Shown here: positions 6,071 to 12,320 of the stretch, piece by piece
Layout: each line of letters opens with the position of its first letter
Position numbering within the stretch: the first letter of the stretch is position 1
Assembly: GCF_900115745.1 (NCBI RefSeq)
Contig: NZ_FOXP01000001.1
Location: forward strand, 310,001-374,000
Length of the DNA stretch: 64,000 nt
From: Sphingomonas rubra
GTDB lineage: Bacteria; Pseudomonadota; Alphaproteobacteria; Sphingomonadales; Sphingomonadaceae
Direction: 5' to 3'
Position numbers and translations under genes: made by a program
Notes under the pieces: generated by a model
Told to the model about the DNA's origin: nothing
The model's input: the letters and a program-made list of their open reading frames with translations, nothing else
The model's database searches: none

Positions 6071-6811
6071 ATGACTGATGTTTCCCCTCTCGACCGTCTC
6101 CGATCGGTCATGGTGCGGCTGCGCGACCCGCATGGCGGTTGCGAGTGGGATCGTGCGCAGACCTGGGCGACGATCGCCCCGTACACGATCGAGGAAGCAT
6201 ACGAGGTCGCCGACGCGATCGCGCGCCACGACAGCGACGACGTTCGCGACGAACTCGGCGACCTGCTGCTCCAGGTCGTGTTCCATAGCCGTATCGCCGA
6301 GGAAGCCGGCCTGTTCGACTTCGACGCCGTCGCCGCCGCAATCGCCGACAAGATGGAGCGTCGTCACCCGCACATTTTCGGCGACGCACCCGCCAAGGTC
6401 GGCTGGGAGGAACTGAAGGCGCAGGAACGCGGGCACCGGCACGCCTTGGCGGGCGTCGCCCTGGCGTTGCCGGCGTTGCAGCGCGCCGACAAGATCCAGC
6501 GCCGCGCCGCGCGCGTCGGCTTCGATTGGCCCGACGCCGCCGGACCCCGCGCCAAGATCGACGAGGAACTCGCCGAGGTGGCAGCGGCCGGCGACGACAG
6601 CCGCGCCGACGAGATCGGCGACCTGTTGTTCAGCGTCGTCAACTGGTCCCGCCACCTCGGCATCGATCCCGAACAGGCGTTGCGCGCCTCGACGGCGAAG
6701 TTCGAGCGCCGCTTCGCCGCGATGGAACAGGCTGCGGGTCCGGATTTCGCCGGCCTCGACCTCGACGCGAAGGAGACGTTGTGGAGCGAGGCTAAGCGAA
6801 GCGTCGGGTAA
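6071..6811 (+). CDS. mazG: Nucleoside triphosphate pyrophosphohydrolase MazG
   Basis: Hydrolyses (d)NTPs to the monophosphate and pyrophosphate, a housecleaning role in the cytoplasm. The 246-residue protein holds two tandem MazG all-alpha domains. The first has the metal-binding helices around IEEAYEVADAI and RDELGDLLLQVVFHS; the second has KIDEELAEVAAA and DEIGDLLFSVVNWSRHL. Length fits full-length MazG. Its 3' end overlaps the convergent hflX stop by about 20 bases. Confidence 0.94.
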   Translation: MTDVSPLDRLRSVMVRLRDPHGGCEWDRAQTWATIAPYTIEEAYEVADAIARHDSDDVRDELGDLLLQVVFHSRIAEEAGLFDFDAVAAAIADKMERRHPHIFGDAPAKVGWEELKAQERGHRHALAGVALALPALQRADKIQRRAARVGFDWPDAAGPRAKIDEELAEVAAAGDDSRADEIGDLLFSVVNWSRHLGIDPEQALRASTAKFERRFAAMEQAAGPDFAGLDLDAKETLWSEAKRSVG

Positions 6812-8105
6812 AGCGGGCGTGATCCCCCTCGCCCATCCGCACGGCGAAGATGGTGGTCTCGCCCTCGCTATGCTGGTCGAGCACTTCGCCATGCGCGTGC
6901 AGCCACGCCGCGGCGGCGCCGTCGGTGGCCGGCACGGCGATCTCGTAGCGGCGGTGCCCCGCGGTCAGTCGTGCGGCAACCGTGTCCACCAGCGCGTCGA
7001 CACCCTCCCCGGTCAGCGCGGAGATCGCCATCACGTCGTCGCGCCGCGCTGCCTCGGGCGACAGCGACTGGCGCCGCTCGTCGTCCAGCAGGTCGAGCTT
7101 GTTCCACGCCTCGAAACGCGGCGTCGCCGGATCGACGCCGATCTCGTCGAGCACTGCCTCCACATCGGCGCGCTGCGCCTCCGTATCGGGATGCGCGACG
7201 TCGCGGACGTGGATCAGCAGGTCGGCCGATACCACTTCCTCCAGCGTCGCCTTGAACGCGGCGACGAGCTGCGTCGGCAGGTCGGAAACGAAGCCAACGG
7301 TGTCGGACAGGATCGCCTTGTCCAGCCCCGGCAGCGAGATCTGGCGCAGCGTCGGGTCGAGCGTCGCGAACAGCAGATCCTCCGCCATCACCGCGGAGCC
7401 GGTCAGTCGGTTGAACAGCGTCGACTTGCCGGCATTGGTGTAGCCGACCAGCGCGATCACCGGCCAGGGTGCGCGCTGCCGCCGTTCGCGGTGCAGGCCG
7501 CGGGTGCGGCTGACCTGGTCCAGCTCGCGCCGCAGCCGCGCCATGCGATCGCGGATCAGCCGGCGGTCGGCCTCGATCTGCGTCTCGCCGGGACCGCCCA
7601 GGAAGCCGAAGCCGCCGCGCTGCCGCTCCAGATGGGTCCAGCTGCGCACCAGCCGCCCGGCCTGATAGTCGAGGTGCGCGAGTTCGACCTGTAATCGCCC
7701 CTCCGCCGTGGCGGCGCGCTCGCCGAAGATCTCCAGGATCAGGCCGGTGCGATCGATCACCTTGGCGCCCAGCCCCGTCTCCAGGTTGCGCTGCTGCACC
7801 GGCGTCAGCGCGGCGTCGACGACGACCAGCCTCGCCTCCTCCATCACGATCCGCTGCGCCAGCTCCTCGACCTGGCCGCTGCCGATCAGCGTCGCCGGCC
7901 GCGGCTGGCGGACGCGGAGCGCAACACGCTCAACGACGTCCAGCCCGATCGCCATCGCCAGCCCCGCGCTCTCGTCGAGCCGCGCCTCCGCGTCGCGCGA
8001 CGAGTCGCCACGGTCGGGCAACAGCACGATCGTGCGGGCCCCGCGCGCGAACTCGTCACGATCGCGGTCGAACCCCGCCCCGCTGCTGCCGGAAACCGCG
8101 CTCAA
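6792..8105 (-). CDS. hflX: GTPase HflX (ribosome-splitting / ribosome rescue)
   Basis: A translational GTPase that binds the large subunit and splits stalled ribosomes under stress. The 437-residue protein has the HflX N-terminal domain, the coiled linker with [13 protein letters not shown], and a G domain with G1 [10 protein letters not shown]3 DTVGF and G4 NKLD. No ATG occurs before residue 50. The TTG at 8105 is taken as start because it overlaps the hfq TGA (TTGA) and leads straight into family-like sequence ([20 protein letters not shown]). It is co-transcribed downstream of hfq, the classical hfq-hflX order. Confidence 0.93.
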
Positions 8106-8587
8106 TCCGCGTCCGCCTGCTCGTCGGAGAGGTTGAGCGGACCAGCCGGCTGGATGGTGGACACCGCGTGTTTGTAGACGAGCTGCACCATGCCTTCGCG
8201 GTGAAGCAGCATGCAGAACAGGTCGAACCCGGCGATTTGGCCCTGCAGCATGACGCCGTTGATGAGGAACATCGTCACGCTGTCCTCCGACTTGCGGACG
8301 GCGTTCAAGAACAGTTCCTGGAGCAGCGGCGACTTGCGCTGGTTCTCGCCCACCGCCTCGACCAGCGGCGCGACGTCGAACTGGCCACCGGGCATGATGG
8401 TGGAGATGGCGTGCTTGTAGATCAGCTGGGACTGGCCATCGCGGCGGAGCAGCACGGAAAAATTATCAAACCAGGTGACGATGCCCTGGAGCTTGACGCC
8501 CTTGACCAGGAACATGGTCACCGGCGTCTTGGAGCGGCGGAGCGCGTTGAGGAACAGGTCCTGGAGCGATGCCTGCTTGTCGGCCAT
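8102..8587 (-). CDS. hfq: RNA chaperone Hfq with two tandem Hfq domains
   Basis: An Sm-like RNA chaperone for sRNA-mRNA pairing. At 161 residues it is about twice the core length and contains two complete Hfq folds, at residues 7-66 and 88-147, joined by a linker of about 20 residues. Domain 1 has the proximal-face set Q9/D10, F43 and Y57-K58-H59, and rim R17/R18. Domain 2 has Q90/E91, F124 and Y138-K139-H140, but a weaker rim (R98/K99 followed by E101/D102). Distal-face positions differ too (K32 versus M113). A trimer of such subunits would give a pseudo-hexameric ring with alternating faces; that is inference. Confidence 0.95.
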
Positions 8588-8707: not shown

Positions 8708-10081
8708 TCAATCCTCGCGCGTGTCGCTGATGCCGAGGAGTTTCAATTTACGATGCAACGCCGAGCGTTCCATGCCGATGAAACTCGCGGTGCGCGAAAT
8801 GTTGCCGGAGAAGCGGCGGATCTGGACGCGTAGATACTCGCGCTCGAACGTCTCGCGTGCCTCGCGCAAGGGCGCGCCCATGATCGTCGTCGATCCCCGC
8901 TCACCGCCCGCGTCGGTGCCCATCACCTCGGCGGGCAGCAGGTCGAGTTCGATCCGGCCGATCCGGTCGCCGGGCGCCAAGATCACCGTCCGTTCGACGA
9001 CGTTGCGCAGCTGGCGGACGTTGCCCGGCCATTCATAGGATTGCAGCGCCACCATCGCGTCGGCGGCGATCTCCGGCGTCGGCACCCGCCGCTCGCGGGC
9101 GTAATGCGCCAGGAAATGGAGGACGAGCGGCGGGATGTCCTCGCGCCGGTCGGCGAGCGGCGGGATCGGCACGGGGACGACGTTGAGGCGGTAGTATAGG
9201 TCCTCGCGGAAGCGCCCGGCGGCGATCTCGTCGGTCAGGTCGCGCGAGGTGGCGGAGACGACGCGCACGTCCACCTTGACCACGCGTGTGCCCCCTACCC
9301 GCGTGAAGCTCTGGTCGGTCAGCACCCGCAGAATGCGCGCCTGGGTGGTGATCGGCATGTCGGCGATCTCGTCCAGGAACAGCGTGCCGCCATGTGCCTG
9401 TTCGAGCAGGCCGGGCCGGACGAGGTCGCCGCCCTCCTCGATCCCGAACAGCTCCTCCTCGACGCGCTCGGGCGTCATGTTGGCGGCGCTGACGATGACG
9501 AAGGGCGCGGCGGCGCGGTTGCTCCAGCCGTGCAGCAGCCGCGCCGCCACCTCCTTGCCCACGCCGGCGGGGCCGACCAGCATCACGCGACTGCCGGTCG
9601 CCGCCACCCGCTTCAGCGTCGCGCGCACGCCGTTGATCGCGGCCGAGCTGCCGGTCAGGTCGTTGTCGCGGCCGGACGACTGGCGGAGACTCTCCACCTC
9701 GCGCCGCAGTTGCTCGGTCTCGGTCGCGCGGGCCACCATGTGGAGCAGCCGCGACGCCTCGAACGGCTTCTCGATGAAGTCCACCGCCCCTTTGCGGATC
9801 GCCGCCACCGCCGTGTCGAGGCTGCCATGGCCGGAAATGACGAGCACCGGGATCGACGGGTCGCGCCGCTTGATCTCGTCCAGCAGTTCCAGGCCGTCGA
9901 GCCGCGACCCTTGCAACCACACGTCGAGCAGCGCAAGCGACGGCCGCCGGGCGGCGATCGCCTCCAGCGCGGCGTCGCTGTCGCCGGCCGCACGGGTGTC
10001 GTAGCCCTCGTCCTCCAGCACGCCGGCGACCAGTTCGCGGATGTCGAGTTCGTCGTCGACGATAAGGATATCGAGCGGCAT
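8708..10081 (-). CDS. ntrX: Response regulator NtrX (AAA+, lacking the GAFTGA loop)
   Basis: Response regulator paired with NtrY, controlling nitrogen and envelope/redox-related genes in Alphaproteobacteria. It is 457 residues from the ATG at 10081, which gives MPLDILIVDDE; the longer upstream reading would run back into ntrY. Receiver domain: D9/D10, phospho-acceptor D53 and K in FIEKPF. The AAA+ domain has a P-loop (GPAGVGKE) and Walker B (GGTLFLDEIADMP). A Fis-type helix-turn-helix follows (GNISRTASFIGMERSALHRKL). Where sigma-54 activators have ELFGxxxGAFTGA, this protein reads ELFGIEEGGDLVRPGLLEQAHGG, so the sigma-54 contact loop is missing. It may therefore act as a repressor or on other polymerase forms. 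Confidence 0.93.
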   Translation of the reverse strand: MPLDILIVDDELDIRELVAGVLEDEGYDTRAAGDSDAALEAIAARRPSLALLDVWLQGSRLDGLELLDEIKRRDPSIPVLVISGHGSLDTAVAAIRKGAVDFIEKPFEASRLLHMVARATETEQLRREVESLRQSSGRDNDLTGSSAAINGVRATLKRVAATGSRVMLVGPAGVGKEVAARLLHGWSNRAAAPFVIVSAANMTPERVEEELFGIEEGGDLVRPGLLEQAHGGTLFLDEIADMPITTQARILRVLTDQSFTRVGGTRVVKVDVRVVSATSRDLTDEIAAGRFREDLYYRLNVVPVPIPPLADRREDIPPLVLHFLAHYARERRVPTPEIAADAMVALQSYEWPGNVRQLRNVVERTVILAPGDRIGRIELDLLPAEVMGTDAGGERGSTTIMGAPLREARETFEREYLRVQIRRFSGNISRTASFIGMERSALHRKLKLLGISDTRED

Positions 10082-10085
10082 CGCG

Positions 10086-12320
10086 TCAGGTCCGATTGAG
10101 AGAGAGGGCGGCGAGATGATCCTCACCGCCGGGTTCGGGAGCGGCCGCCCCCTGGTCGAGCTTGGCCAGCATGGCGGCGTCGAAGGTCATCAGCACGATC
10201 GTGCCGCCACCGGGCCGGTCGGCGAAGTCGATCCGGCCGCAATGTTCCTCGACGATCTTCTTGACGATCGCCAGTCCCAGGCCGGTGCCCTTGGCCCGCG
10301 TCGTCATGTACGGCTCGACAATGCGGTCGCGTGCGGCGGGCAGGCCGACGCCGTCGTCGGATACCGTCACCTCGACGATGCCGTCTCGCTCGGTCAGGGT
10401 CAGCGTGATCTCGCCACCGCCGCCGCCCCGGCCCTCGATCGCCTCCACCGCATTCTTGACGATGTTGGTGAGCGCCTGGCCGATCTGGCGGCGATCGCAC
10501 ACCAGGGTCGGCGGCGGATCGTCGTGAACCAGCGCGAAGCGGATCGCGGGATGGGCGACCTCGTGCAGGAACATGACCTGATGTGCCGCGTCGATCAGCG
10601 ATTCCTCGCGGAACACGGGCTTCGGCATCCGCGCGAAGGAGGAGAACTCGTCCACCATTCGCCGCAGATCGCCGACCTGGCGGATGATCGTCTCGGTCAG
10701 CCGCGCGAAGGTGGGATCGTCGGCATCGACCTTGCCGCCGTAGCGACGCTGAAGCCGCTCGGCCGCCAGCTGGATGGGGGTGAGCGGGTTCTTGATCTCG
10801 TGGGCGATGCGACGCGCCACGTCGGACCAGGCGGCGCGGCGCTGGTCGACCAGCTGCTGCGTGACGTCGTCGAAGGTCAGGATCGGCCCGCGGTCGATAT
10901 CGGCTAGGCGGACGGCCAGCGTTCGGGCGCCGGCCCCCTCGCCCACCTGCACCACGGCCTCCCGCGCGCCCGTGTTCACCAGCGAGTCGAGCTCCGGCGC
11001 CACGTCGGCGAGCGAGCGGCCGACGACACCGTCGGCATCGGTATCGAGCAGCCGCACGGCGGAGGCGTTGGCGATGCTGATCGTCCGGTCGGGACGGGTC
11101 GCGACCACACCCGCGGAGATGCCCGCGAGCACCGCCTCGATCAGCGTGCGGCGGCTTTCCAGCTGGTCGTTGGCCGCGCGCAGCTCGCCGTTCTGCGCCT
11201 CGATCCGCCCCGTCATCTGGTTGAAGGCGGCGGCGAGCGTGCCGACCTCGTCCCGTTCCCGTCGCTCCGGCACCCGCGCCGACAGGTCGCCGGTGGCGAC
11301 GCGGCGGGCGGCGTCCACGAGTTCGCCGACCGGGTGAACCAGTCGGTCGGCGACCTTGAGCGCGATCCACACCGCGATGCCGACGATTAACAGCGAGATG
11401 ACGAGCAGCGCGGCGTTGAATTGAAGCTGGAGCGAGCGTGCTTCCTCCAGCAACGCCCGGTAGTTGGCGAGCGCCGTCTCCGCCCGCGCCGTCCGCTGCT
11501 GCAACTCGTTGGGTTCGGTGATCCGGCCTGTGTACAAGAGGAAACCGGGCATTCCGGGGATGGCCGTCACCGTCTGGATGCGATTGGTCTTGAGGTTGAC
11601 GACGCTGCGCTGCCCCTGCCGCAACGAGGCGACCATCTCCGCGTTCAGCTGGGCCGGCATGTCGATGTTGTAGGGATTGACCTCCACCACGGTGCGAATG
11701 CGGTTATCGGGCGAGACCGCGAAGACGGCTCCCTCGCTGAGGCTGCGCAGGAACAGCTGCGTGCCGACATACTGGTAGAGCGCCTGCCTGCTGGGCGAAC
11801 CCTGAAGCTCGCTGCCGATATCGGCGGCCATCGTCACCGTGGCCTCCTCCCACCAGCTCAGCGTCTGTTTGAACGACTGCCGCGTCAGCTCGGTCGCGTT
11901 CTCGAACACGCCGCGCGCCCGATCCGAGTACCAGAACTGCACGCCGTACTGGAACAGCAGCGACGCGAAGATGGTGACGAGCAGCATCGGCACCGCCGCC
12001 ACGACCGAGAACAGCGCGACGAGGCGGACGTGGAGACGCCCCTCGCCCCCGATCGGCGATCGGGCGGCACGGCGCCGCGCCACGCGCCGGCCGAACAGCA
12101 CCAGCAGCGCGATGCCGGGGACCAGGTTGGCGATCAGGATCGACGCGACCAGCGCCGGCTCGATCAGCCGCTGCGATTCGCCCGAACTGGACAGGATGAA
12201 GTAGCTGCCGATCGCGACGGCGACCGCGATGGCGAGGACGAGCAGCTCGACCGCGGGCGTCACCGACCACCGCCGGCGCGACGTCTCTCCGATTTCCAAC
12301 GAGGTCGCGACTGCGATCAT
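10086..12320 (-). CDS. ntrY: Membrane sensor histidine kinase NtrY
   Basis: Sensor kinase partner of NtrX in the inner membrane. From the ATG at 12320 it is 744 residues. Three hydrophobic segments lie near the N-terminus (starting around VELLVLAIAVAVAIGSYFIL), then a periplasmic sensing region, a fourth membrane segment (LLVISLLIVGIAVWIAL), HAMP, PAS, HisKA with the H-box ([19 protein letters not shown]) and a HATPase domain (N-box NIVKNAVEAIEG, G-boxes SDDGVGLP and GTGLGLAIVKKI). Longer upstream reading lacks membrane logic and is rejected. The stop lies 4 bases from the ntrX start. Confidence 0.93.
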   Translation of the reverse strand: MIAVATSLEIGETSRRRWSVTPAVELLVLAIAVAVAIGSYFILSSSGESQRLIEPALVASILIANLVPGIALLVLFGRRVARRRAARSPIGGEGRLHVRLVALFSVVAAVPMLLVTIFASLLFQYGVQFWYSDRARGVFENATELTRQSFKQTLSWWEEATVTMAADIGSELQGSPSRQALYQYVGTQLFLRSLSEGAVFAVSPDNRIRTVVEVNPYNIDMPAQLNAEMVASLRQGQRSVVNLKTNRIQTVTAIPGMPGFLLYTGRITEPNELQQRTARAETALANYRALLEEARSLQLQFNAALLVISLLIVGIAVWIALKVADRLVHPVGELVDAARRVATGDLSARVPERRERDEVGTLAAAFNQMTGRIEAQNGELRAANDQLESRRTLIEAVLAGISAGVVATRPDRTISIANASAVRLLDTDADGVVGRSLADVAPELDSLVNTGAREAVVQVGEGAGARTLAVRLADIDRGPILTFDDVTQQLVDQRRAAWSDVARRIAHEIKNPLTPIQLAAERLQRRYGGKVDADDPTFARLTETIIRQVGDLRRMVDEFSSFARMPKPVFREESLIDAAHQVMFLHEVAHPAIRFALVHDDPPPTLVCDRRQIGQALTNIVKNAVEAIEGRGGGGGEITLTLTERDGIVEVTVSDDGVGLPAARDRIVEPYMTTRAKGTGLGLAIVKKIVEEHCGRIDFADRPGGGTIVLMTFDAAMLAKLDQGAAAPEPGGEDHLAALSLNRT

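Follow-up and report, generated by a model that had tools for sequence, protein, structure and literature searches.

The window studied here, a stretch of 64,000 nucleotides from Sphingomonas rubra, carries an hfq gene encoding two Sm/Hfq domains in one chain, which raises the question of what kind of ring such a protein would form and whether its two halves can do the same work. The usual Hfq is a homohexamer, a six-part ring in which any mutation hits all six subunits, so that it is hard to ask whether all the rims or all the distal sites are needed. Since a chain with two unlike Hfq domains can be mutated in one half at a time, the stoichiometry of the ring and the cooperation between its faces become directly testable. 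The question bears on the main RNA matchmaker of a group including the ethanol producer Zymomonas.

Two kinds of systems are comparable to this protein. Burkholderia carries two separate hfq genes (Hfq and Hfq2) in one genome; like the halves of the tandem, these are divergent Hfq duplicates, but they are made as separate chains without any fixed pairing. Archaea and eukaryotes have seven-membered, hetero-oligomeric Sm/Lsm rings consisting of non-identical folds encoded by separate genes. A ring of unlike Sm folds is also what is proposed here for tandem Hfq, and we use these rings as a working analogy, although the tandem consists of two fused bacterial Hfq folds and a six-domain ring is expected. 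The eukaryotic Lsm rings are given as heteroheptamers in the available part of Yang et al. (2010; PMC2877685).

The available text of the same article describes two Sm-like domains in the Hfq of Zymomonas mobilis (ZMO0347), mentions two-domain Hfq in six other Sphingomonadales species, and already raises three chains per hexamer as a question; neither the tandem form nor the idea of a trimer is therefore new. NCBIfam also carries a model of tandem Hfq, NF010691, and the initial annotation was right in substance in saying that the form had been noted before. The Zymomonas protein and those covered by NF010691 have the same two-domain chain as the window protein, with nothing different in kind. 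In the part of the literature on tandem or sphingomonad Hfq that was covered (titles, abstracts, and text passages), no description of an asymmetry between the first half (A) and the second half (B) was found, and the accessible portion of the Zymomonas article mentions neither of the two features described below. What is new, at the level of the sequences, is the manner in which the halves differ: the distal loop is changed reciprocally, and the second half has lost its rim patch.

One Gene Encoding Two Hfq Domains

The tandem gene lies on the minus strand, a point absent from the initial annotation, and is the sole hfq match in the 3.2 Mb assembly, in which a second hfq was looked for and none was found (Table 1). 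The window protein scored 187.6 bits with the Pfam Hfq model PF17209 (cutoff 27), which matched two stretches of it, and 287.6 bits with the tandem model NF010691/PRK14091 (cutoff 270), residues 1-159 aligning with positions 16-173 of the 176 in the model. AlphaFold2, run on an alignment of 74 proteins, predicted a helix (residues 8-19) followed by five strands up to residue 66 in A, and a helix (89-100) followed by five strands up to residue 147 in B. The description of a single hfq gene with two complete Hfq folds is thus confirmed by the reading frame, the Pfam profile and the predicted structure. The tandem chain was modeled with a mean pLDDT of 88.3 and a pTM of 0.85, the latter value lending some confidence to the way in which the domains are placed relative to each other in the prediction; four of the five models had a mean pLDDT of about 87-88, and one was poor (61.0).

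Table 1. Features of the tandem hfq gene and its neighbors (positions in the window)
Feature	Position	Strand	Remarks
hflX	6792..8105	minus	downstream of hfq; putative TTG start overlaps hfq stop (TTGA)
hfq, tandem Hfq	8102..8587	minus	161 aa + stop; ATG at 8587, stop 8104-8102; lone genome match
Short acidic C-terminal tail, residues 148-161	8105..8146	minus	sequence
Sm/Hfq domain B, residues 88-147	8147..8326	minus	PF17209 has two stretches on the protein; AlphaFold2; VIA-align
Distal loop of B, N110-G-V-M113 (E. coli 28-31)	8249..8260	minus	N28 unchanged, M at position 31 (for K)
Eroded rim of B, R98 K99 S100 E101 D102 (with H129)	8282..8296	minus	rim charge set 0
Linker, residues 67-87	8327..8389	minus	short helix 73-79 predicted
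Sm/Hfq domain A, residues 7-66	8390..8569	minus	best PF17209 stretch 8-67; AlphaFold2; VIA-align
Distal loop of A, K29-G-V-K32 (E. coli 28-31)	8492..8503	minus	K at position 28 (for N), K31 unchanged
Basic rim patch of A, R17 R18 S19 K20 (with R48)	8528..8539	minus	rim charge set +4
Response regulator with sigma-54 activator domain	8708..10126	minus	upstream of hfq

The top structural match of domain A was the Hfq of Caulobacter crescentus (6gwk, Z 10.1 with VIA-align), and the region of domain B (residues 86-151 of the model) matched 8bvh_E (Z 8.6); Foldseek and VIA-align fit one domain per alignment, and these matches carry no information on the ring. The Caulobacter protein was also the top sequence match among the solved chains (E 2.2e-30, residues 2-68). 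It shares the YKH and Q8 residues with the window tandem; unlike the latter, it has a single domain in which N28 and K31 occur together, whereas the window protein divides them between its halves. The sequence search among solved chains gave 35 distinct matches at E <=0.001, none of which exceeded 114 residues, and no tandem Hfq was found among them; it therefore seems that tandem Hfq has no solved structure.

The four bases shared by hfq and the putative hflX frame at 8102-8105 of the minus strand (TTGA) suggest that the translation of the two genes is coupled. An HflX match lay on the same fetched stretch as hfq in 227 of the 231 loci read, and a match to the upstream response regulator did so in 197 of them; this regulator is probably ntrX, judging from its position beside an NtrY_N kinase.

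Distribution and Origin of the Tandem Form

Three overlapping samples of genomes were searched. The order sample comprised 297 genomes, 236 of which belong to the family of the window, taken here to be the Sphingomonadaceae, and 61 to other families, and an Hfq match was found in 296 of them. Within the family, 216 of the 236 genomes matched at E <=6.2e-51, some of them being judged by E-value alone, and the 20 weaker matches, which were each read, proved to be nine diverged tandems and 11 single-domain proteins. The nine diverged, fast-evolving tandems (L031, L033, L035, L042, L048, L049, L053, L056, and L059) all come from one genus, g12; by E-value this genus looked like a mixture of tandem and single forms, a view that was rejected upon reading its weak members. 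In the other families of the order, 60 of the 61 genomes gave a match: the ten that were read are all single (one, L060, being a fragment), and the remaining 50 end at residue 96 of the query or before. In the class sample, Hfq was matched in 333 of the 387 genomes and, among the matches listed, both domains were spanned only in the family of the window. Three long matches from outside it (L209-L211) were discarded as tandems since they have an internal stop and one domain each. In the phylum sample, at least 13 of the 249 genomes scored above the NF010691 cutoff, all of them, among the matches listed, in this same family. No tandem Hfq was therefore seen outside the family among the matches listed in the three samples, which strongly diverged tandems may escape, those of genus g12 scoring as low as E 1.5e-24.

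The 231 loci read, some of which come from the same genome, include 186 two-domain and 45 single-domain loci. Removing identical pairs left 150 distinct A+B pairs, 141 of the main type and nine diverged; counted with identical proteins, the main-type loci number 177. The distinct full-length single-domain proteins among the loci read number 40.

A tree built on 64 columns, with a bootstrap that had not settled, included 32 A halves, which formed one clade (99/95), 32 B halves, which formed another (100/99), and 24 single-domain proteins. In a quick HflX tree, all 31 tandem carriers fell into one clade (SH-aLRT 96) and the eight single-domain family members included all branched outside it. Both trees show the grouping that we ourselves took as the mark of a single origin: the A and B clades, together with the single HflX clade, point to one fusion, with no loss seen in the sample. 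As judged from these sequences, the tandem arose once, by an ancient in-frame fusion of hfq, and the halves suggest that the material for it was supplied by a duplication of hfq. A reversion from tandem to single form was considered for the 11 single-domain family members and rejected, since they carry N28 together with K31 and the eight on the HflX tree lie outside the tandem clade.

It might be objected that the tandem is an artefact, in which two hfq genes were joined by misassembly or a frameshift, or else a precursor that yields two ordinary Hfqs upon cleavage of its linker. We found no evidence in favor of either version. The initial annotation had named a frameshift or misassembly splitting the domains as what would overturn its reading; a single open frame runs through all 186 tandem loci, which rules this out. 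Furthermore, the domain spacing stays within 27-33 residues in the 177 main-type loci, and, at positions 28 and 31, none of 108 distinct single-domain Hfqs resembles either half. We regard an artefact or a processed precursor as extremely improbable.

Contact Residues Kept in Both Halves

The contact residues for RNA are largely kept in the tandem protein. The YKH residues of the Sm2 motif, which the initial annotation gave as kept by both copies, do occur at positions 57-59 of A and 138-140 of B. Using the E. coli numbering (as for positions 28, 31, and the others below), the proximal residues Q8, K56, and H57 and the distal residues Q52, T61, G29, and L32 were found in A and B alike in every one of the 141 main-type tandems; Q33 occurs in 139 A halves and 140 B halves. 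The B halves of this type also have Y55 and Q63 without exception and F42 in 140 cases. None of the 150 distinct B halves, the diverged ones included, lacks Q8, Q52, K56, or H57.

The halves differ at positions 37 (T in A, A in B), 41 (N in A, L in B), 43 (S in A, C in B), and 63 (M in A, Q in B), among others. At position 41, 126 of the 141 A halves have N and 120 of the B halves have L; at position 9, B has E 77 times and D 64 times. The proximal difference D10 versus E91 noted at the outset is therefore correct in the window and does not extend to tandems in general, and we dropped it as an A/B difference. The fact that B has L at position 41 and, in 77 cases, E in place of D9 suggests that its proximal pocket may not fully match that of A.

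Each half is nevertheless expected to hold much of both the uridine pocket and the adenine site, which argues against reserving one half for sRNA and the other for mRNA. The clean division of this kind put forward initially is unsupported, since the proximal as well as the distal contact residues are kept in both halves. In terms of its residues, B has the look of a subunit whose rim was given up, rather than of one plainly dedicated to a single class of RNA.

Loss of the Rim Patch in the Second Half

The rim charge was calculated from positions 16-20 plus the residue that follows L46, identical proteins being counted. It amounted to +4 in 162 and +3 in 15 of the 177 A halves of main-type loci, values similar to those of the single-domain loci (+4 in 41 and +3 in three of 44); none of the 177 B halves exceeded +2. 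The rim is thus basic in A and neutral or acidic in most B halves. The mean net charge of the whole core was +5.3 in A, +0.2 in B, and +4.6 in single-domain proteins. Position 17 of the 141 B halves is most often K (64), R (35), D (21), or E (12), and position 19 is most often E (53), Q (24), G (21), or D (11). The residues listed initially for the window, R17/R18 versus R98/K99 followed by two acids, were correct, and what holds generally is the loss of charge, which was found in every B half of the main type; the accompanying difference in the loop, R48 in A versus H129 in B, had been missed. The available part of a preprint on E. coli Hfq reports that sRNA-mRNA chimeras are nearly abolished in the R16A mutant (PMC12262471).

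The C-terminal tail following B carries a mean net charge of -5.1 in main-type tandem loci (-4.2 in single-domain loci), and the linker following A one of -1.8. If three chains make up a ring, it would carry three acidic tips, where a homohexamer has six.

Reciprocal Change in the Distal Loop

Position 28 is K and position 31 is K in all 141 main-type A halves, and the corresponding B halves all have N28 and M31. Among the single-domain proteins of the loci read, N28 occurs in 39 of 40 and K31 in all 40. The control was widened with 40 loci of other classes and 40 of the class of the window, giving 108 distinct single-domain proteins (76 from this class and 32 from others): N28 was found in 107 and K31 in 108 of them, K28 and M31 in none. 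Aligned separately with sphingomonad and other single-domain proteins, as the initial annotation had recommended, the halves thus show consistent differences. The distal contrast that it had seen, K32 versus M113, holds throughout the main type; the other side of this contrast, K29 in A versus N110 in B, was missing from it.

Among positions 7-64, the indel loop 47-51 being set aside, 24 columns are conserved at 97% or more in the 108 single-domain proteins. A departure common to all 141 sequences was found only at position 28 in A and only at position 31 in B; partial departures were found at position 54 in A and at positions 9, 13, 16, 39, and 54 in B. Since 32 of 276 random pairs of these columns lie equally near (no more than three positions apart), the closeness of positions 28 and 31 is not significant in itself. 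The sameness of the loop across 141 sequences, however, argues for constraint.

Each half lacks one near-invariant distal residue that its partner keeps, and the pair therefore looks locked together by complementary change. In the accessible portion of a study on Pseudomonas Hfq, the distal R site is placed between adjacent subunits, and six positive protuberances are described as guiding the RNA (PMC6422490). The preprint mentioned above gives, in the part available, an approximately four-fold decrease in sRNA-mRNA chimeras in the E. coli K31A mutant (PMC12262471). The complementary change in this loop provides a concrete target for testing.

Selection on the Two Halves

In 46 independent pairs, the dN/dS ratio was 0.09 for A and 0.20 for B, and nonsynonymous changes were more numerous in B than in A in 31 pairs, less numerous in one, and equal in 14. 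Both halves are, as far as their codons indicate, under purifying selection, B being the less constrained. The inequality of the RNA-binding surfaces proposed initially is consistent across the loci read and is found in halves which are both maintained. As B tolerates about twice as much amino acid change as A, relaxation alone may account for part of its divergence.

Taken further, this idea would make B mostly a structural filler: a ring needs six Sm folds, A would do the RNA work, and the outer surfaces of B would slowly decay, the asymmetry being a result of relaxed selection. The faster evolution of B and the free variation of its rim at positions 17 and 19 fit this explanation, as do the nine diverged tandems, in which the B half has lost Q33 in every case and drifts at position 31 (A in three, M in two, R in two, L in one, and S in one). 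It accounts poorly, however, for the retention of Q8, Q52, K56, and H57 in all the B halves, the uniformity of N28, M31, and Q63 throughout the main type, or a dN/dS of 0.20, which still denotes clear constraint. In four of the nine diverged tandems, moreover, it is A which carries H57Q, while B keeps H57. We consider it unlikely that B is mainly a filler.

The A halves of the diverged tandems all have K28 and R31, and eight of the nine B halves have N28. The drift at position 31 and the loss of one N28 in B indicate that the loop pattern is not essential everywhere. These nine proteins form a natural series of further decay in each half.

A Putative Three-Fold Ring

Since the differences between the surfaces of A and B are consistent and complementary, the ring probably functions not as six equal parts but as three A/B pairs. 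We favor the view that three tandem chains form an unequal ring with alternating A and B domains and three rim-competent A sites, and give this reading a probability of about 0.6. Three chains of 17.9 kDa would make a complex of 54 kDa. Of the two domains, A retains the complete basic rim, the face driving sRNA-mRNA pairing in E. coli, and also carries a doubly basic distal loop (K28 and K31). B has given up the rim patch and carries the complementary distal loop (N28 and M31), but its uridine pocket on the proximal face and its adenine site on the distal face are mostly intact; annealing at B might be reduced. The ring would thus present three rim sites instead of six, and its distal charge pattern would become three-fold, with two loop lysines in each A and none in each B, i.e., still six per ring.

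The spacing between H57 of A and Q8 of B is 31 residues in 125 of the 177 main-type loci (range 27-33) and 24-25 residues in the nine diverged tandems. This near-constant spacing and the predicted placement of the domains fit the idea that A and B are neighbors in a ring, without proving it. The domains might instead sort into separate rings, A6 and B6, stacked or tethered, or into higher assemblies, given that the Sm core is kept in both halves and either of them could self-assemble. This arrangement seems quite improbable to us in view of the defined relative placement predicted at a pTM of 0.85, and a near-constant short linker would also suit neighbors better.

The alternating ring can be extended into a more specific suggestion, which we put forward tentatively as a possibility. 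Sphingomonad Hfq might be obligately three-fold: with the N28/K31 loop divided between the halves, the A/B and B/A junctions would form distal sites of different strength or specificity, so that A-rich mRNA might be read with a period of two triplets rather than one, and only three of the six rims would catalyze pairing.

An N-terminal extension with a conserved motif resembling TLSARP near its start, located 14-30 residues before the first Hfq domain, was observed in 32 of the 186 tandem loci (L141-L149, L157, L160, L171-L174, L178, L182-L184, L189-L193, L196, L197, and L202-L207, with L174 and L204 coming from one genome) and in none of the 45 single-domain loci.
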